DNA of 64,000 nucleotides from Clostridium massiliamazoniense (GTDB taxonomy: Bacteria > Bacillota > Clostridia > Clostridiales > Clostridiaceae). A program made the position numbers and the translations under genes. The notes under the pieces were generated by a model. That model was not told the origin of the DNA, searched no databases, and saw only the letters and a program-made list of their open reading frames with translations. The number at the start of each line of letters is the position of its first letter. Position 1 is the first letter of the stretch. Of this stretch, positions 14,326-23,866 are shown one piece after another. Location of the stretch: contig NZ_LN879468.1 of assembly GCF_001403635.1 (NCBI RefSeq), positions 124,001-188,000 on the forward strand. The letters run 5' to 3'.

Positions 14326-15725
14326 TTAAGAAATTTCTTCAGCAGAAAATTCATCAATTTCATCAATTTCATCATTTTTATTATTTTCTGTATATCTATT
14401 ATACTTTTTAAATAGGAATACTAACACTATAACCCCTGCTATTCCATAGAATAAGGCAGATACATAATAAGCTGTAGCATAGCCTTTAATAGTTGAAAAG
14501 AGGAAATATTTAGTGAATATTCCTCCAAAAATATATCCAAAGGCCTGTAGAGCACTAACTACGGCATTAAATTCTGCTCTTTCAGATTTTTTTACAAAGC
14601 TCATTGGAAGAGCTTGAGTTATAGGTTGAGAAGCATTAGCAAGTCCAGATCTAATAAATAGAGTAATACTAACACCTATAACCATAAAGCTGCCAAATAA
14701 TTTCCCATTAGCAAGTATAAAAAAGATTGGTATAGCACAAAGAAATAGTCCGCCAATAGATGCTACAGAACCAAATTTCTTTTCAAACTTAGGTGAAAGC
14801 ATCATGAATATTACTGAAGCAACATAAGTTAAAGCAAGTATTATAGAAACAGTGCCTCTTTCTATGTGAAGATATTGGTTTAAGTATATAGGGAAGTAAG
14901 GGCAGATTAATGCTGCACCAAAACCAATAGAAAAACTAAATATAAGCCATACTATTATATCTTTACTTTTAAAAATACCAAAGTTAAATTTATTTTTAGT
15001 TGAGTTATGATCATTTTGTTTTTCTTCAATATAATCTTTTTTTCTTTCTTTTAAGAAAAGTAAAATAATAAAGACTATTAAGGCAATAGCGCAAACAGCC
15101 CATAATATTACTTTAAATGCTTTAAAATATTCTAATTTTTCACTTAAGGTTAATAGGGTAGGGGCGCTACTAAGCTTATCTGCTTCTGCATAATTTACAT
15201 GTAAAAATTTAGAGAAAAAGTATACTACTAAATTTCCATCAAATAATGTAGCTAGTGCTGTACCAATTAAATTTGCATATAAAGCTCTTGCAAAGATTTT
15301 AGTTCTATTTTCAAGGGTTGTATATGCTATAACATAGGAGCTAAGAAATATAACATTAAATTAGCACCAGTTAGAAATAATATAGTTAAAATACTGATAA
15401 TACATGAATTATTTAAATACATTATTCCAATCATACTTCCTATGATGACAAAGGAGAAGGGTAGCAACATTTTTTTATAACCTAGTTTAGTGACAAAGAC
15501 TAAAACAAAGGCAGAAATTAAAATAGATAACCCCCAAAAGGTAGAATAGGCAGAGGCAACAGAAGGATTTTTTAGCTGTAGGAAACTTACAAAAGCATCT
15601 AAGGATATTCCGTTAATTAATCCTACAAAGGTAAAAGCAGCAATAAAAACATTACAATTTCTATTTAGTCTTTTTTTTTCAATAGAATCTATTTCAGTAG
15701 TAGATGATAAATTTTTAGTAGTCAT
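14326..15725 (-). pseudogene. frameshifted MFS transporter
   Basis: Two pieces of one 12-helix MFS protein. The N-terminal part (15725-15327, 132 residues) starts with ATG behind AGGTGA and runs through four helices to a stop in ...YFLAPML. The rest continues in another frame from about 15357 down to 14326 (reading ...SYVIAYTTLENRTKIFARALYANLIGT and onward). The two frames are both open only between about 15357 and 15327, so a one-base deletion (or two-base insertion) there explains the break. No further stop occurs downstream to the natural end. I cannot exclude programmed frameshifting or a sequencing error. Substrate unknown. Confidence 0.8.
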
Positions 15726-16138
15726 AAGTTCACCTCATATATTTTCAATAAAATGATATTTAATCAGAGAAATTTTAATATGTCCCTGATTTGTTGAATA
15801 GTTGTCTTTAATAAAAGTTATATCTGTAGATAAAGGAAACATTAAAAATTTCATTAAATTCAGATTAAATTATACTACTGATTTAAATTACATAAATTTC
15901 ATCATAATACGAAAATAATAATTTAATATTATGATTATTTGAAAATAAATAGACAGAGGTAGATTTAGGTAATTTATTCTTATTTAATTTTGAAATATGA
16001 ATAATAATTAAAAAAAAATAAAATGAATATATTTTAAATAAAAAGTTAACAAATAATTAATTTAAAATATAAAATTTAATCTTTTAAGCATAGTTTAGAG
16101 GTTATTATGAATACATTTATAACAAAAGGAGGGGTATT
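15726..16138. other. 413-bp gap upstream of prkA
   Basis: Very AT-rich, no ORF. AGGAGG at about 16128 serves prkA. CATAGTTT at 16089-16096, with ATA-rich sequence about 15 bases before it, is weakly like the CATA-type -10 of sporulation sigma factors E/K. This is suggestive only. Confidence 0.3.
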
Positions 16139-16858
16139 ATGGATTTTAGAGAATTTATTCAAAGTGATAGAGAAAAGCGCAACAAGGAGAAATTCGAGGG
16201 GACATTTTTAGATTACTTAGAAATAGTAAAAAATAATCCTGATATTGCTAAATTAGCTCATAAAAGAATATATGATTTAATTATGGATGAAGGAGTTGAG
16301 GTTTTAAAACCAGAAGAAAATCCAAGAATTAAAAAAATTTATGGAAATGAAAAAATAAAGAAATACAATTTTTATAAAGATGACTTCTTTGGAATTGATA
16401 AAGTTATTATGAAGTTAATGAATTATTTTTATTCTGCATCTATGAAGGGGGAAGAAGCTAGACAGGTTTTATATCTTGTTGGACCAGTTGGAGCAGGTAA
16501 GTCTTCATTAGTTGAGGCTATAAAAAAGGTTTTAGAAACATCACCTCCAATTTATATTATTAAAGGTTGTCCAATGCATGAAGATCCATTGCATTTAATA
16601 CCTAAACATTTAAGAAAAGAATTTGAAGAAATATTAGGAGTTCAAATAGAAGGAGATTTATGTCCGGTATGCAAGTATAAACTTTTACATGAATATGAAG
16701 GACAATATGAGAATGTACCAGTTTGTACAACAAATTTCTCAATACGTTCAAGAAAAGGTATAGGGGTAGTTCCACCTGTAGACCCTAATAACCAAGATAC
16801 TTCTATAGTACATAAAAAGGAAGGTAAATTTAGTAGCAATTTATATTACAGCTTCTAG
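16139..16858 (+). CDS. prkA: PrkA sporulation protein kinase/AAA protein, 5' part (interrupted)
   Basis: N-terminal part of the PrkA family (YeaG in enterics), an AAA-type P-loop protein described as a serine kinase and more recently as an ATP-dependent protease needed for normal sporulation. AGGAGG precedes ATG 16139. Walker A GPVGAGKS is at residues 115-122. Conserved sequence runs to residue 222 (...VDPNNQDTS). After that, 17 unrelated residues and a stop come from the inserted element. The missing remainder is at 22604-23866 in the corresponding frame. Codon 221 (ACT, 16799) is where the element begins. In this form the protein lacks Walker B and the C-terminal domain and should be inactive. 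Excision of 16799-22603 would give an uninterrupted 640-residue protein. Confidence 0.92.
   Translation: MDFREFIQSDREKRNKEKFEGTFLDYLEIVKNNPDIAKLAHKRIYDLIMDEGVEVLKPEENPRIKKIYGNEKIKKYNFYKDDFFGIDKVIMKLMNYFYSASMKGEEARQVLYLVGPVGAGKSSLVEAIKKVLETSPPIYIIKGCPMHEDPLHLIPKHLRKEFEEILGVQIEGDLCPVCKYKLLHEYEGQYENVPVCTTNFSIRSRKGIGVVPPVDPNNQDTSIVHKKEGKFSSNLYYSF
16781..16825 (+). other. left attachment site (attL)
   Basis: prkA sequence up to GATACTTC, then element sequence. The core ACTTC is at 16799-16803. The element-side arm contains AAGGT at 16821-16825, exactly 18 nt from the central TT, mirrored by ACCTT in the right site. Confidence 0.75.
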
Positions 16859-16960
16859 TTATCTCAACAGATAAATATATTTTTTTCATCTATTGAGATA
16901 GCTATATAGCTAAATAAAAGGTAAAGAGGATGTATCTGTAATTTGATACATCCTCTTTTA
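16856..16960 (-). repeat. dispersed palindromic repeat, family A, reversed copy inside the element
   Basis: Contains TATCTCAACAGAT / ATCTATTGAGATA and then the hairpin AGAGGATGTATC / GATACATCCTCTTTT. The TAG that ends the truncated prkA lies at its left edge. The hairpin near 16924-16958 is likely the terminator of the SulP gene on the other strand. Confidence 0.7.
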
Positions 16961-16988
16961 AAACCTATATAATTAGAATTTTTAAAGG

Positions 16989-18380
16989 CTACTTTATTAT
17001 AGTTAATTCAATGTTTTTTGAATTAAGAATACTTTTAGCTTGTTCCATAGATTCTTCAAAAGTAGAATCTAAAATTTTGCTCTTACTTATATCTAAGACT
17101 ATTTTATTTGTCTCTTGTGTTTCAACTAGAGTATCTTTTAGTTCATTAGATGTTGCAAAGAATAAGTATCCTGAAGTTATGTAGTGAATTTCTTTTCCTT
17201 GTACTTTTTTTGTTATGTTTATTTTAGACAAATTGTACATTAGGTGAAGTGCTGCTAATATTATTCCTAGAACAACTCCAATAGCTAAGTTTCCTGTGAT
17301 TAAAACAGATATAACTGTTATTATCATTATAATAGTATCTGAAATAGGTATTGTTTTAATTTTTTTTACTGAATCCCAGTTAAAAGTTGTTATTGATATC
17401 ATTATCATAACGGCAACTAAAGCTGCTATGGGAATTTGCACTACATAGTTACTGAATATTGAAACTAGGGCCATTAAACTTACTCCTGCAAATATAGTAG
17501 ATAATCTTGTTTTAGCACCTGATTTACTGTTTATAGTTGACTGCCCAACTAAAGCACAACCTGTCATACCACTAAAAAAGCCAGAAACTATATTACCACA
17601 TCCTTGAGCTATAGTTTCTCTATTTTTATTACTATTTTCATCACCTATAATTTCATCTAAGTTTTGAGCTGTTAGTAAGCTTTCTATAGTTCCTACAATA
17701 GCTAAGGAAAAGGCATAAGGTAAAACAATAAGTAGGTTATGAATAGTTATTGGAACTAGTGGCAGTGTAAATGGTGGAAGTCCAGCCTTTATAGGGCCAA
17801 TAGTACCAAGGTTAGGAACTTTTATTTTAAATATCATAACTATGGCTGTTACTATTATAATTGCAATTAAGTTTGATGGTATTTTTTTTGTTAAGAGAGG
17901 AAATAAGTAAATAATAGCAAGACCTATTCCCACTAATATGTACATCATGTATCCTTGTCCTATGAAAAAGTGTATTTGGTCCTTGAAAAGCATTATTCCA
18001 AGGGCATTAACAAAACCAAACATTACAGCTCGTGGTATAAATTTTAATAATTTTCCTACTTTAAATATTCCAAAAAGTATTTGTAGACATCCTGTCATTA
18101 TTGTTGCTAAACCAACGTAGTCAACACCATAATTTTTTGCTAACACAACTAATATAAGTCCAACTGAACCAGCAGCTGCTGAAATCATTGCTTTTCTAGC
18201 ACCTAAAATAGCTACAACTATAGACATACAAAAGGTAGTATAGAATGCAACCATTGGGCTTAAACCAACCATTAAGGCAAAGCCAGCTGTTTCAGGAATC
18301 ATGGAAAGACCAACAACGAAGGATGAAAGTAAATCAGTTCGTACGTTAGATAGCCAATCTCTTTTGAAAGTTTCTATCAT
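16989..18380 (-). CDS. SulP-family inorganic anion transporter
   Basis: Transporter of 463 residues with about 10-12 helices. The SulP core shows DLLSSFVVGLSMIPETAGFALMVG at the start (transport of sulfate, bicarbonate or similar anions), FFSGMTGCALVGQSTIN in the middle, and a short C-terminal STAS-like domain (from about residue 405; FATSNELKDTLVE...VLDISKSKILDST). The protein is shorter than typical 550-residue family members because of the reduced STAS domain. AAGGAG precedes the start. It lies in the prkA element on the strand opposite to prkA, in its own transcription unit. Its link to excision is not evident; it is probably cargo. Confidence 0.88.
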   Translation of the reverse strand: MIETFKRDWLSNVRTDLLSSFVVGLSMIPETAGFALMVGLSPMVAFYTTFCMSIVVAILGARKAMISAAAGSVGLILVVLAKNYGVDYVGLATIMTGCLQILFGIFKVGKLLKFIPRAVMFGFVNALGIMLFKDQIHFFIGQGYMMYILVGIGLAIIYLFPLLTKKIPSNLIAIIIVTAIVMIFKIKVPNLGTIGPIKAGLPPFTLPLVPITIHNLLIVLPYAFSLAIVGTIESLLTAQNLDEIIGDENSNKNRETIAQGCGNIVSGFFSGMTGCALVGQSTINSKSGAKTRLSTIFAGVSLMALVSIFSNYVVQIPIAALVAVMIMISITTFNWDSVKKIKTIPISDTIIMIITVISVLITGNLAIGVVLGIILAALHLMYNLSKINITKKVQGKEIHYITSGYLFFATSNELKDTLVETQETNKIVLDISKSKILDSTFEESMEQAKSILNSKNIELTIIK

Positions 18381-18598
18381 AAGAATCTCCTTTCATCTTT
18401 TGTTTAATTATTTAATTTTTATAAAGTAAATAAACTACAGAATAAATTTTATATTAAAAAAAGTTAATAGTAAAGATTCATGTGAGTATGGTAGAGGAGG
18501 CATTAATTTATATCAATATTTTGGAGTAGACTACATTTTTAAATAATTTTTTACTTTATTTTGAACTTATAATCTATAGAATAACATTAATTTCTTAG

Positions 18599-18634
18599 AA
18601 AAAAGTTAGATGAACTTACTAAAGTCCATCTAAC
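18599..18634 (-). terminator. terminator of the WG-repeat gene
   Basis: GTTAGATG / CATCTAAC stem followed on the minus strand by six T. It lies 105 bp after the WG gene's stop. The remaining 18381-18739 gap also holds the perfect 14-bp palindrome AGTGACTAGTCACT (18659-18672), function unknown. Confidence 0.75.
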
Positions 18635-18739
18635 CTAATTAATAATTTAGTATTGTTCAGTGACTAGTCACTAATTTGATTAACTATTTTTATTATATTT
18701 CCACTAGTACTGTTTAAGTAATAATCTTTATTATCCTTT

Positions 18740-19996
18740 CTAATTTTTATTGAACTCTACATTATTAACTGGATTCTCAATATTGTTTATATCAAAAGGA
18801 ATATAATCTATAATTTTCTCACAATTATTTCTCAAATTCAAAACATTAATTTGCTTATTATCCCCTATGAATAATAAACTATTTATGATAAATGTGTCTT
18901 TTGTTGTTATGTTTTCCATTACCTTATTACCTTTATTATCAAATATAGTTTTAGTACCATCCTTAGTTGCTAGAATATAATCTATATATTCCTTAGGAGG
19001 ATAATAATTAGTAATTACATCATACTGAATAGGTATGATAAGTTCACCATCTGCATTTAATAACCCTTTTTTCTTACCACTTGAAACAACAAATTTATCT
19101 CCTTTTTCTGTTATATCATCATATTGAGCTTCAACTAAAATTTCACTATTTTTTCCGATTATTCCTTGTAATTTATTCTGGGTATTTTCAAAAATAAGCC
19201 CTGTTCCGTAACTGACTGATTTAATTCTTGCATTTTTAAAAGTATTAATTTTTTTACCAGTAGAATCAATAATAATTATATTTCCATTATCTTCATAAGC
19301 TATTTTATCATAAATCAATGGGCTATCAGATATAGGAAAGACTTTATCAATTATTATTTTTCCTTTACTATTTGCAATGTAAACATTATTTCCTCTTATT
19401 AATCGTAGTACATCAGCGGAATTTTTAGTCTGATATTTAAAGTTGGCATTAATTTCATCATATTCAAATGGGATTACAATATTGTTATTATCATCTATGA
19501 CACCACATCTTCCATACATATTCTTTGCAGCAAAAAGATTATTATATAAAGGAACTATATTTTTATAAAGATCAGTTGGGATTATTAGCTTTCCATCTAA
19601 TGTTTCAATTCCATTTCCATAATCTGAATATCTATATTTATATTTATCATTCAAAACAGTAAATTCTTTATTTTTAAATCCTGTAAGATTAACATTTTCT
19701 CTATTTAAAACTGCAAATTCCCCATCTTTTTCAACATACATAAATGTTTTATTAAAGTCTCCCATGATAATTTTATTGTATATTGGTTCAATAATTTCAT
19801 TTCCTAAGTCATCGATAACACCATATTTACCATTTTCCCCTTTAAATACAGTTATATCACTTTTTTCTGTTTCACTTTTTTCTTGATTTACTGTAATATC
19901 TGCTAAATTAGTTTTTTTATTTACCATAATAAAACCTGTGCCTAAAATGGCTGTTGATAGTATAAGGCAACTTATAATTAATTTTTTTCTCTTCAT
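18740..19996 (-). CDS. WG-repeat protein with N-terminal membrane anchor
   Basis: A 418-residue protein. An N-terminal hydrophobic segment (about 4-25) follows KRKK and gives a signal anchor or secreted form. The rest consists of degenerate WG/KWG-type repeats of about 30-45 residues with G-x-Y/C-G-V-I-D-D/N and I-I-P-x-x-Y-D-x-I patterns, for example YGVIDDLGNEIIEPIY, CGVIDDNNNIVIPFEYDEI and GLLNADGELIIPIQYDVI. Such repeats form beta structures on surface or periplasmic proteins; no enzymatic function is known to me. GGGGGAAA precedes the start. It is carried inside the prkA element as cargo and is separately terminated. Confidence 0.75.
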   Translation of the reverse strand: MKRKKLIISCLILSTAILGTGFIMVNKKTNLADITVNQEKSETEKSDITVFKGENGKYGVIDDLGNEIIEPIYNKIIMGDFNKTFMYVEKDGEFAVLNRENVNLTGFKNKEFTVLNDKYKYRYSDYGNGIETLDGKLIIPTDLYKNIVPLYNNLFAAKNMYGRCGVIDDNNNIVIPFEYDEINANFKYQTKNSADVLRLIRGNNVYIANSKGKIIIDKVFPISDSPLIYDKIAYEDNGNIIIIDSTGKKINTFKNARIKSVSYGTGLIFENTQNKLQGIIGKNSEILVEAQYDDITEKGDKFVVSSGKKKGLLNADGELIIPIQYDVITNYYPPKEYIDYILATKDGTKTIFDNKGNKVMENITTKDTFIINSLLFIGDNKQINVLNLRNNCEKIIDYIPFDINNIENPVNNVEFNKN

Positions 19997-20747
19997 ATGT
20001 TTCCCCCTAAAATTAACTTTATAATAAATTCAATAATATAGTACAATTTTTTAGTAATTTATATATTAATTATAACTTATTTCTAAGTATTTTTAGCATG
20101 TTAATATAACCTTTGCTAGTTATTAATTTTTGATTTATTATGGTCTAAAAGTTTAATAAAAGTTTAAAACTTAATTATATGGTATAGAAGGGAATTTACA
20201 GTTGTCTAGTAATTATATAAATTTTTAATTATGTTTTGGTTGGAATTATGAAAATATAAATATAGGAAAGTGTAGATTGGAAAACAAGAATAGATTTATC
20301 AAAATATGAGATGAAAATTAAATCATTTCTAAAAATTTAGAAATATTAATGGTATAGGCTATTGACTATATTAAGGTTAGTGTAATTTTTAAGATTAGAT
20401 GAATTTTGTTCTAATAAGAATATTAATCAAAAGACTTCAATAAATATACACCTAGCTTAAAAGTTTTTAGCTAGGTATATTTGTAAGTAGAATATACAAT
20501 TATTAGTAGTTATTCTTTATTTTTAGCAATGAATTTAGTATTAAATACTATACTTAGATTATAATTGAAGGAAGTGAGAAAAGATATTGATTTATATGTC
20601 ATTTAGATTTCAATTTTGTAAGATATTTAATATTGTTTTGAAATATAAAATATCTTAGTTAATATCTTTAAGAATTGAGAAAGATGTAATTTTTAATGTT
20701 AAATTGGAATAACTATATATAGTTAGAAATAGCAAGGGGAGATTTCA
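19997..20747. other. 750-bp gene-free stretch inside the element
   Basis: No convincing ORF on either strand. It contains the divergent control regions for the WG gene (-) and the recombinase pair (+). One hairpin, ACCTAGCT (20450-20457) / AGCTAGGT (20469-20476), is present without a good T-run. The length and position before the small gene and recombinase make it the place to look for a sporulation-specific promoter or a small RNA. Confidence 0.4.
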
Positions 20748-20972
20748 TTGACAGTTTTAGTTGATGAAAAAATATTTAAATATATAAGTAGGGAAGAATA
20801 TAGGCGAGAACTTAAACTCTTAAAAACTGGAGATAGTAAAGTTATATATTATGATGGTCATATTAAGATTCGTGTAATTAAGCTAGAAAGAAAGGTATAT
20901 ACCTTAATTTCAGAATATGGTAATGAACCTATAGATGAAATAGTAAGAAATATGATAATAGTACAAGCATAG
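20748..20972 (+). CDS. 74-residue protein before the recombinase; candidate directionality factor
   Basis: I do not recognise the family. TTG start at 20748 with GGGGAG 7 bases before it. The product is 74 residues, mixed alpha/beta in appearance, mildly basic in the middle (YRRELKLLKTGDSK; KIRVIKLERK), with no membrane segment. It ends 70 bp before the recombinase start and reads in the same direction, so the two are probably co-transcribed. In related developmental excision systems (SprB with SprA in SP-beta) a small separate protein switches the recombinase to excision. Position and size make this the best candidate here, by inference only. Confidence 0.6.
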   Translation: MTVLVDEKIFKYISREEYRRELKLLKTGDSKVIYYDGHIKIRVIKLERKVYTLISEYGNEPIDEIVRNMIIVQA

Positions 20973-21042
20973 TAGGAAATGCTTGTACTTTTTTAAAAGT
21001 AAATAATTGTTATTTAGTAATTAAGTAATGGAGTTGATTAAG

Positions 21043-22542
21043 ATGAAAAGAGTAGCTACTTTTAGTAGGGTTAGTACCTTAGATCAACATAGTAGCATAG
21101 AAAATCAAGAAAAGGTCTTTCAGCAGTGGTTTGAAAATAATAAAGGTTTTTATCATTATAAGTCTTATATTGATGAGGGGATTAGTGGAGCTAAAGGGTA
21201 TAAAAGAATTCAATGGAATAGAATGATTAAGGATGGAGGAGAAGGACGTTTCGATGTACTTCTTTGTAAATCATTTAGTAGATTTGGAAGGAATCAAAGA
21301 GAAACTTTAGATGCTATAAATAAACTTAGAGTAAAGAATATTAGAATAATTTTTTTAGAAGATAATCTTGATTCTGCACGAGATTTTGCTAATTTTGGAC
21401 TTATGGCATGGCTAGCTGAAAAGGAAGCCAATGCAACTTCTGAAAGAATAAAAGTAATTTGGCATAGCTTTAATATTGAAGGTAAGGTTCACACTCCTGT
21501 GGCTCCTTATGGGTATTACTATAATAAGGATAAAAAAAATTACTTTGTTAATAAAGAGGAAGCAAAGGTTATAAAATATATTTTTTCATTGTATTTAGAG
21601 GGATATGGATACAATGGTATTTGCAACAAACTCATAGAAAAAGGTATAAAAACAAAAAGGGGAGGAACTTGGCAGGGAAATACTATAGGTAAAATTCTTA
21701 AAAATGAATTTTATTTAGGAACATTGGTGCAAGGGAAAACAAGAACTATAGATGCTACTGTAAAAGAGAATATAAAAATAGATTCAAGTGAGTGGTACCG
21801 TCATAAGAATAATCATGAAGCAATTATAGAAGAAGATATTTTTTATGAGGTTAATAAAAAAATTAAAGAGAGAGGAATAAGAGCAAAAAAAAGCCAACAA
21901 CATAATAAAACTAGTACTAGAAATTCCAATAAAGCTTTATTTAGTAATTTACTAGTTTGTGGGCACTGTGGATCTAAAATGTATATAAAAAGAAGAAAAA
22001 AAGAAAATTATAAGAATTGTTACAATTGTTTAGCTTATGAAAGGCAGGGAACTAAGTGTGGTCATAAAAGTAATAGATATATAGAAGATCATATTAAGAT
22101 GTTAATAAAATTTGAGTTAGAGGATTTAAGTGAAAATAACTTGAGGAGATTACAAAATATAAAGAGTAAGAAAGTAAATAAAGTTCAGATCTATGAAAAA
22201 GAGTTAAAGAAAATAAATAAGGCTATAGATAAGGAGCTTCTTTTAGCAAATAATTTACTTAGTAATTATTCTAAAAATTTAGTAGAAGAAGAGCTTTATA
22301 AGCTTCAAAATAGTGCTTTGAATAATAGAATTAAAGAACTTTTAAAAGAAAAGGAAAGTTTAAAGCTAAATATAGATAATGAATATAAGAAGGAAGATAA
22401 AGAAAATATTTTTAATGCTATAGAAAAAATTTTAAATTTACCTATGGAACAATGGACCAATGCTATGTTAAAAGAAATAATTTCAGAAATTACATTAAGG
22501 ATTGATGGAACTATAAAGTTAAAGGTAAAGTATTTTGACTAA
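21043..22542 (+). CDS. large serine recombinase (SpoIVCA/SprA-like)
   Basis: Site-specific recombinase of 499 residues. The resolvase domain (about 1-150) starts RVATFSRVSTLDQ with the catalytic serine at residue 11 and shows the arginine-bearing CKSFSRFGRNQRETLD. The Recombinase domain is at about 160-270 (YGYYYNKDKKNYFVNKEEAKVIKYIF region). A zinc ribbon follows, CGHCG...CYNC...KCGHK, and then a Leu/Lys/Glu-rich coiled coil to about 460. Length and order match SpoIVCA of the Bacillus skin element. ATG 21043 is preferred, with GGAG upstream; an in-frame ATG at 21028 overlaps that site. It lies at the right end of the element, pointing to the attachment site. Confidence 0.93.
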   Translation: MKRVATFSRVSTLDQHSSIENQEKVFQQWFENNKGFYHYKSYIDEGISGAKGYKRIQWNRMIKDGGEGRFDVLLCKSFSRFGRNQRETLDAINKLRVKNIRIIFLEDNLDSARDFANFGLMAWLAEKEANATSERIKVIWHSFNIEGKVHTPVAPYGYYYNKDKKNYFVNKEEAKVIKYIFSLYLEGYGYNGICNKLIEKGIKTKRGGTWQGNTIGKILKNEFYLGTLVQGKTRTIDATVKENIKIDSSEWYRHKNNHEAIIEEDIFYEVNKKIKERGIRAKKSQQHNKTSTRNSNKALFSNLLVCGHCGSKMYIKRRKKENYKNCYNCLAYERQGTKCGHKSNRYIEDHIKMLIKFELEDLSENNLRRLQNIKSKKVNKVQIYEKELKKINKAIDKELLLANNLLSNYSKNLVEEELYKLQNSALNNRIKELLKEKESLKLNIDNEYKKEDKENIFNAIEKILNLPMEQWTNAMLKEIISEITLRIDGTIKLKVKYFD

Positions 22543-22582
22543 TTAAAAAAGGAAAGCTAAAGGCTTTATTTCAAATTTCTGA

Positions 22583-22625
22583 ACCTTTTAAGGTAGTTAA
22601 GGAACTTCAATATTAACAGGGGCTA
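22583..22625 (+). other. right attachment site (attR)
   Basis: Element-side arm with ACCTT at 22583-22587, exactly 18 nt before the central TT of the core ACTTC (22604-22608), then prkA sequence (A-ATA-TTA-ACA-GGG, encoding S-I-L-T-G). Joined to the left arm in a circle it would give an attP with mirrored ACCTT/AAGGT. Confidence 0.75.
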
Positions 22626-23866
22626 TTGATATATCTAAGATGGATATGTATCCAGAAGATGATCCTAGAATTTTCTCATTAAATGGAGCATTTAACGTCG
22701 GTAATAGAGGCCTTGTTGAATTTATTGAAGTATTTAAAAATGATGTTGAGTATCTTCATACTATAATTACAGCAACTCAAGAAAAATCTATTCCATCACC
22801 TGGTAAAGGTTCAATGATTTATTTTGATGGACTTATTATTGCTCACTCAAATGAAGCTGAATGGAATAAGTTTAAATCAGATCATACCAATGAAGCTATT
22901 TTAGATAGAATAGTTAAAATTGAAGTACCTTACTGTTTAGAGATGAGTGAAGAAAAGAAAATTTATGAAAAAATCCTTAAGAAATCAAACTTCAAAGCTC
23001 ATATAGCACCACATACTATGGAAATTGCAGCACTTTTTGCAGTTCTTTCAAGACTTACACCATCTGTAAAAGTTGACCCTATAACTAAGCTTAGACTTTA
23101 TGATGGAGAAGATGTAGTTGAAAAAGGAACTACTAAGAAAATTGATGTTACAGAATTAAGAGAAGAAGCTGGTCCTATGGAAGGAATGAAGGGAATTTCA
23201 ACTAGATTTATTATTAAGGCCATAGACAATGCTCTTTCAAATTCAGAGCATAATTGTATTAATCCATTAAGCATAATGGAAAGTATAATTAAGTCAGTTA
23301 AGGATATGGATATATCTCAAGAAGATAAGAAGAGATATTTAGGCTTTATTCAAGATACTATTAGAAAAGAATACAATAAAGAGCTAGAGGGTGAAATTAC
23401 AAAAGCATTTATTCATTCTTTTAGAGAACAAGCTGAAAGTTTATTTAATAATTATTTAGATAATGCAGAGGCTTATATTAATAAAAATAAAATTAAGGAT
23501 GATTCAACAGGAGAAGAATTAAATCCAGATGAAGAATTTATGAGAAGTATTGAAGAGCAAATTGGAATTTCTGAAGCTTCAGCTAAAGGATTTAGAGCTG
23601 ATGTAACTTCTTATATGTTCTATGTTGTTAGAAATGGTGGAAAAATAGATTATAAATCTTATGAGCCATTAAAAGAAGCTATAGAGAAAAAACTTACAGC
23701 TTCAGTGAAAGATTTATCTAGAATAATAACAAAATCAAGAGTTAGAGATAAAGAACAGGATGCAAAATATAATGCTATGGTTGCCCAAATGGAGAAGAAT
23801 GGATACTGTCCTCATTGCTGTGACGTTATATTGAAATACGCTGCAAATAATTTATGGAAGGATTAA
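22604..23866 (+). CDS. prkA: PrkA, 3' part (interrupted)
   Basis: C-terminal 420 residues of PrkA, lacking any start codon of its own near the junction. In-frame sequence begins at 22604 ([12 protein letters not shown]) and continues through conserved [47 protein letters not shown] and the C-terminal domain to the stop at 23866. The first internal ATG (22640) has no ribosome binding site. The sequence shows no frameshift or stop, so it is still maintained, as expected if excision rebuilds the gene. YhbH follows after 4 bases. Confidence 0.92.

Follow-up and report, generated by a model that had tools for sequence, protein, structure and literature searches.

An element carrying a large serine recombinase splits prkA in Clostridium massiliamazoniense and is probably excised to rebuild the gene

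Background

How can a spore former carry a sporulation gene cut in two, and can that gene be made whole again? The question is raised by prkA of Clostridium massiliamazoniense, which within the window analysed here (the entire 64-kb stretch of contig NZ_LN879468.1, positions 124,001 to 188,000, from whose first letter all coordinates are counted) is interrupted by 5,805 bp that encode a large serine recombinase (LSR). Deletion of PrkA is reported to impair sporulation in B. subtilis (PMC4415436), and prkA, yhbH and spoVR are listed as (putatively) sporulation-involved in C. perfringens SM101 (PMC4433262). Genes described as split in a comparable manner comprise sigK, spoVFB, spoVR, spsM, gerE, kamA and yabG (PMC10747680, PMC5595907, PMC4191935, PMC6957869). 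The first-pass annotation of the window knew of no such element in prkA, and none was found described in the open-licence literature that we searched for prkA with recombinase, attachment-site and skin terms. Here we argue that the insert likely belongs to a family of non-phage, skin-type elements sharing an attachment site within prkA, and that its precise excision can rebuild the gene, probably in the mother cell.

Results

prkA is split by an element with its own recombinase

The 5' part of prkA (16139..16798, + strand; defined by the list of open reading frames (ORFs), Pfam and the PrkA alignment) runs for 220 codons up to the insert, and its frame continues for another 19 codons inside it to a stop at 16858. 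The 3' part (22604..23866, +) holds the remainder of the AAA domain and the PrkA C-terminal domain, such that Pfam finds PF08298 cut in two, its first part in 16139-16798 and the rest in 22604-23866, where PF06798 is complete. With split points at 16798/16799 and 22603/22604, which follow from the junction sequences and the PrkA alignment and delimit the entire element (16799..22603, +), the flanks read together yield 640 amino acids (aa) and a stop. This agrees with the first-pass annotation, which had proposed two undamaged halves, a joined frame of 640 codons and an insert of 5,805 bp with ACTTC at both ends: both halves are open and match PrkA by Pfam, and the junction sequences bear out the ends. 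As in skin-type elements, a sporulation gene is thus split with both parts open, an intact LSR is encoded inside the insert, and the ends are joinable at the sequence level, here and in the relatives described below.

The LSR (21028..22542, +) carries the Pfam domains Resolvase, Recombinase and Zn_ribbon_recom. A recombinase of 499 residues had been annotated; its presence stands, although the ORF comprises 504 aa from the ATG at 21028 and 499 from an inner ATG. Among solved chains its best match by sequence is YokA of SP-beta, which we take to be the same protein as SprA. Its similarity to XisF and CcrB (E about 1e-28) lies below the curated cut-offs, and identity with a staphylococcal cassette chromosome (SCC) was rejected because the LSR scores far under those of CcrB (101 vs 900 bits), CcrC (77 vs 900) and CcrA (64 vs 700).

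The same codon of prkA is interrupted in other clostridia

Of 234 PrkA relatives on genome contigs, 80 were kept, and 76 of these gave a single uninterrupted match across the entire protein, one (L042) was cut by a contig end and one (L073) consisted of two abutting pieces. Interrupted genes were found in the remaining two, C. mediterraneense (L001) and C. neonatale (L044; its 5' half lies further upstream). The C. mediterraneense gene is broken at the very codon used in C. massiliamazoniense, by a different element whose LSR is 70% identical.

Among 206 genomes from the family to which C. neonatale belongs, 158 contained the PrkA 5' half and 159 the 3' half. Among the matches listed, the 5' open frames measure 231-244 residues in seven genomes (C. 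mediterraneense, G001; C. neonatale, G002; G007, G008, G037, G070 and G071) and at least 600 in the rest, and the 3' frames 420-424 in the same genomes except G070, 555 in G042 and at least 640 in all remaining ones. An LSR adjoins the prkA parts or lies between them in G001, G002, G007, G037 and G070; the contigs of G008 and G071 break off at the site. The 5' half of G070 stops at the insertion codon and an LSR ORF directed at it ends within 30 bp; the right junction is absent from this assembly, in which another contig end carries the 3' half from residue 116 onwards. Together with G313, in which prkA is split by 7,868 bp and whose LSR is ~41% identical to that of C. massiliamazoniense, six other genomes hence have LSR relatives in prkA (C. 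mediterraneense, C. neonatale, G007, G037, G070 and G313). Chance is excluded, since a different element interrupts the identical codon in C. mediterraneense and further cases exist. An assembly artefact or chimeric contig in C. massiliamazoniense is scarcely credible, being contradicted by the assemblies of relatives, which show this architecture at the identical dinucleotide.

The other inserts measure 3,537, 12,638 and 4,598 bp, 7,868 bp (G313) and, by coordinate arithmetic, about 43.3 kb. The first-pass annotation had taken the divisibility of 5,805 by three as an argument for excision. This argument was discarded: three of the six inserts, C. massiliamazoniense counted, are not multiples of three, and insert length is uninformative in this respect because precise excision rebuilds the gene at any length.

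The attachment site is centred on a shared AC

ACTTC lies at the left junction (attL core, 16799..16803, +) and at the right junction (attR core, 22604..22608, +). Such a 5-bp repeat alone is weak evidence of site-specific insertion. The sequence common to both junctions is ACTTCTATA in C. mediterraneense, AAGATACTTC in C. neonatale and G037, ACTA in G007 and only TAC in G313, and thus the dinucleotide AC is shared by all six elements with both junctions read (C. massiliamazoniense and five relatives).

The attachment sites of LSRs are usually symmetric about a 2-bp crossover. When the ends of each element were joined, they formed an imperfect palindrome, and among centres up to about 10 bases to either side the best was AC in six of six cases, with 14, 12, 16, 16, 11 and 16 of 20 pairs; of the positions in the 64-kb window, 0.06% reach 14 or more pairs and 1.9% reach 11 or more. 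The joined flanks also peak at AC in C. massiliamazoniense (12), C. neonatale (12), G037 (11) and G007 (9), tie there in G313 (9), and reach 9 at AC against 10 elsewhere in C. mediterraneense. We infer from these sequences a crossover at AC, in C. massiliamazoniense at 16799-16800, and an attachment site at the prkA codons GAT-ACT.

Both halves of prkA are constrained in carriers

Ratios of non-synonymous to synonymous substitution (dN/dS) were estimated by the Nei-Gojobori method for pairs among C. massiliamazoniense, the likewise split C. mediterraneense, intact relatives and G007. Between the two split genes, dN/dS of prkA is 0.069 for the 5' half and 0.063 for the 3' half, which compares with 0.043-0.083 for C. 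massiliamazoniense against two intact relatives, 0.113 and 0.058 for C. mediterraneense against an intact relative, and 0.045-0.111 between intact genes. The 3' half keeps its constraint despite starting mid-gene with element sequence before it. As both halves are fully constrained in carriers, the joined gene must form often enough to matter. Synonymous sites are near saturation (prkA dS 0.95-1.4), so that ages are unreadable. The LSR of C. massiliamazoniense is itself constrained, with dN/dS of 0.153 against C. mediterraneense and 0.194 against G007.

A small ORF accompanies the recombinase

Immediately 5' of the recombinase lies an ORF of 74 aa with a TTG start (20748..20972, +). Of the 12 LSR loci in family genomes, 11 have a relative of this ORF by tblastn, immediately 5' of the LSR at ten loci and separated from it by two other ORFs in G070; the copies of G035 and G049 are not independent, as they read identically. 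Small frames in the same position in G085 and G313 are similar by eye only, and in G313 tblastn gave no significant match. Between C. massiliamazoniense and C. mediterraneense the ORF is 50% identical, and its predicted structure, from a two-sequence alignment, comprises two helices and four strands (pLDDT 73.7). Known site-specific recombination units are described as ordered attL-rdf-int-attR (PMC6957869). Position, size and co-occurrence make the 74-aa ORF a candidate recombination directionality factor (RDF).

Cargo differs between elements and holds no recognised phage structural genes

The remaining two genes of the C. massiliamazoniense element encode a SulP-family transporter (463 aa, 16989..18380, - strand; Pfam Sulfate_transp, with a STAS match slightly below the cut-off) and a WG-repeat protein (418 aa, 18740..19996, -; Pfam). 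The element of C. mediterraneense (3.5 kb) consists of the LSR, the 74-aa ORF and two cargo genes for a Crp-type regulator and a cupin, and that of C. neonatale carries a chemoreceptor, kdpABC, KdpD and a response regulator (all by Pfam). As kdpABC and KdpD lie inside the prkA element (L088), excision would remove a potassium-uptake operon from that cell. From ORFs read by eye, G007 carries an 807-aa protein that we read as a glycosyltransferase, and the about 43 kb of G037 include sugar transport and glycosidase genes, reverse-transcriptase-like ORFs and transposase/integrase fragments. The identified cargo is thus unlike between elements.

No phage structural genes were recognised in the prkA inserts, as judged by Pfam for C. 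massiliamazoniense, C. mediterraneense and C. neonatale and by eye for G007, G037 and G313. Pfam found neither phage structural nor replication genes among the four proteins of the C. massiliamazoniense insert; two of them, the LSR and the 74-aa ORF, were in addition compared with PHROGs. Furthermore, 16139-23866 had no megablast match in phage and plasmid collections, and a scan of IMG/VR with the LSR returned one pattern match and no relative. A prophage identity was rejected because these scans recognised no such genes. The earlier label "skin-like" accordingly holds for the mechanism, an LSR element splitting a sporulation gene, and fails for the content, in which nothing phage-like was recognised besides the recombinase.

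The recombinase family has a second target

LSR relatives were found in at least 12 of the 206 family genomes (E up to 1e-70) and, under a stricter threshold (E up to 1e-90), in at least three of 391 genomes drawn from the class, one of which, G313, was new and lies outside the 206; these counts are lower bounds because few candidates per genome were scored. Of the 14 loci in total, C. massiliamazoniense included, seven have the LSR in or at prkA (C. massiliamazoniense, G001, G002, G007, G037, G070 and G313). At five others it lies 5' of a truncated gene resembling mannose-1-phosphate guanylyltransferase (manC-like), at a distance of about 0.1 kb or less, or ~0.7 kb in G066, as measured from ORFs with a Pfam check in G041. 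These loci, L101 (G041), L102 (G066), L103 (G025), L104 (G049) and L090 (G005), constitute a second shared insertion target with a similar small ORF. The remaining two loci, those of G085 and G035, were assigned to neither target. On the LSR contig of G035 there are also ORFs that look prophage-like by eye, and the contig ends just beyond the LSR (L105), which in the stretches compared reads like that of G049; this suggests that the recombinase lineage of G035 and G049 also drives prophages.

In the LSR tree, C. massiliamazoniense, C. mediterraneense and G007 group together (support 100/100), as do G037 and C. neonatale (100/99) and four manC-type rows (100/100), on a weak backbone. The prkA-targeting LSRs form no single supported clade: they take two changes, a single change being found in 0% of bootstrap trees, and no supported branch requires more than one origin of prkA targeting.

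Contig ends in relatives hint at excision

In G007, the contig with the prkA 5' half runs up to the last base that the predicted empty site has in common with the left junction, and its overlap with the element contig is exactly 55 bp. For both G008 and G071, the 5'-half contig crosses the uninterrupted site and shares an exact 55-bp overlap with the 3'-half contig, which starts at the core in G008 and 9 bases before it in G071 (contigs ending at the prkA attachment site: L096/L097 in G008, L098/L099 in G071). We read contig ends with exact 55-bp overlaps as a de Bruijn fork at the attachment site, and hence as a sign that a single DNA sample contained both the split and the joined form. Excision in relatives is thus indirectly supported by forks in three draft assemblies.

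These signs come from relatives and not from C. massiliamazoniense, in which the insertion might be dead, with prkA a pseudogene and the element immobile. We judge this very unlikely and rejected it, given an LSR open over 504 aa with three domains and a dN/dS of 0.15 against C. mediterraneense, prkA halves that are both open and constrained, and matching, palindromic attachment ends.

As to timing, a sigma-E-like pattern lies 5' of prkA in C. massiliamazoniense, at 16068. Within 160 bp 5' of prkA such patterns occur in 10 of 80 sequences, where simple shuffles predict 3.2 and a control stretch gave 1 of 78, an enrichment that is suggestive but weak. An alignment of the upstream regions of four elements revealed no clear promoter by eye.

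Flanking genes

Downstream, prkA is followed by yhbH (DUF444, PF04285; 23871..25106, +) and spoVR (PF04293; 25121..26473, +), both assigned by Pfam, in the cluster order prkA-yhbH-spoVR. Among the genomes compared, the closest relatives by PrkA are C. mediterraneense, Sarcina ventriculi and C. tarantellae; C. perfringens presumably belongs near them. On the other side of prkA, a major facilitator superfamily (MFS) transporter gene (14326-15725, -) has an apparent frameshift near 15330; its ORFs of 132 aa and 159 aa lie in two frames, and Pfam MFS_1 matched only the 159-aa part.

Discussion

Taken together, our data favour an element that the LSR would integrate at a fixed attachment site within prkA, splitting the gene. 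To leave again, the element would use this LSR to recombine attL with attR, the 74-aa protein probably serving as directionality factor, so that a circle is released and prkA restored exactly. The claim of an excisable site-specific element stands on an intact LSR, a defined site that is also used in other species, precise joinability and constrained halves, and no longer on insert length. Mother-cell timing would follow the precedents reported for skin (PMC5025042) and SP-beta (PMC4191935). Since spoVR, two genes 3' of prkA, has vrin in Geobacillus, prkA would be a natural new member of the split genes.

Several points weigh against this interpretation. After a recent insertion, prkA would still appear intact in the absence of any excision. 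Mixed strains would give similar contig forks, and for G008 and G071 only one branch of the fork was recovered: a search with the first 180 bp of the prkA 3' half gave just two sites per genome, two contigs of G008 with other LSRs have no match of more than 10 bases to the prkA junction, and no element at the prkA site was found in G071, whose LSR contigs were inspected by ORFs (one of three) and end sequences. The 74-aa ORF has no meaningful match in Pfam, PHROGs or NCBIfam, its model no significant match in the PDB (best E 0.53), and its dN/dS of 0.5 indicates a constraint much weaker than that of the LSR (0.15). Finally, a pattern scan of the 260 bp 5' of the LSR and of the 74-aa ORF in C. 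massiliamazoniense detected neither sigma-E- nor sigma-K-like sites.

The lack of a mother-cell promoter in that scan would also suit an ordinary integrative element that uses prkA as its attB and is excised at random or for transfer, unrelated to sporulation, with prkA off in most cells. The forks are silent on timing, and five sister LSRs sit 5' of the truncated manC-like gene, which to our knowledge is not a sporulation gene. We nevertheless hold this explanation to be improbable, as both prkA halves are under full constraint in carriers, prkA is reported as a sporulation gene (PMC4415436, PMC4433262) and spoVR of the same cluster is described as the host of vrin in Geobacillus (PMC4191935).

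If prkA is indeed rebuilt by excision, spore formers have in it a further gene that can be carried in two pieces, next to the spoVR target in the same cluster. Across clostridia, one attachment site serves recombinases that have diverged and that bring unrelated cargo. Cargo is likewise swappable in SCC cassettes. At even odds, we propose that prkA is a developmental docking site, in which small non-phage cassettes with one AC core swap cargo across clostridia and sporulation genes serve as safe harbours for ordinary gene cargo and not for prophages alone. The cargo set would comprise a potassium-uptake operon with its sensor, a SulP transporter, a glycosyltransferase, a Crp-type regulator and sugar-utilisation genes. 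The mother cell would excise the cassette and then die, so that the host keeps its germ-line cargo as well as a working PrkA in sporulation. This makes testable whether sporulation genes attract integrative elements because the mother-cell genome is disposable, and the 3.5-kb element of C. mediterraneense offers a convenient model for directionality control.

Among known systems, skin in sigK of B. subtilis and skinCd of C. difficile likewise split a sporulation gene with an element that brings its own LSR, and in skinCd a small directionality factor is reported to act with the LSR (PMC5025042). Their gene is a different one, sigK, and in the prkA element no phage genes were recognised besides the recombinase. 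Furthermore, CD1234 of skinCd is reported to be under sigma-E and SpoIIID (PMC5025042), whereas such control of the prkA element would be by analogy. SP-beta in spsM and phi3T in kamA of B. subtilis are alike in their rdf-int order and precise gene restoration (PMC6957869), yet both are whole prophages, whereas the prkA elements span 3.5 to 43 kb with no phage structural genes recognised, and the 74-aa ORF, in the place of their rdf, matched no known family. For vrin of Geobacillus thermoglucosidasius, the target spoVR belongs to the prkA-yhbH-spoVR cluster, and the element is described as carrying phage-related genes (PMC4191935). The fdxN element with XisF and SCC with its Ccr proteins show sub-threshold similarity of the recombinase, and their hosts and targets differ. 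Closer in character, gin in gerE of B. cereus ATCC 10987 is likewise described as non-prophage(-like) and reconstitutes a sporulation gene, but it measures 28.6 kb (PMC5595907), against 5.8 kb for the prkA element with its relatives of unlike cargo at one attachment site. Lastly, yin in yabG of C. botulinum V73 is also clostridial, with a recombinase, a putative RDF of 72 aa and a detected circle; it is prophage-like and, in the account given there, unique to one strain (PMC10747680), whereas the prkA elements recur across species.
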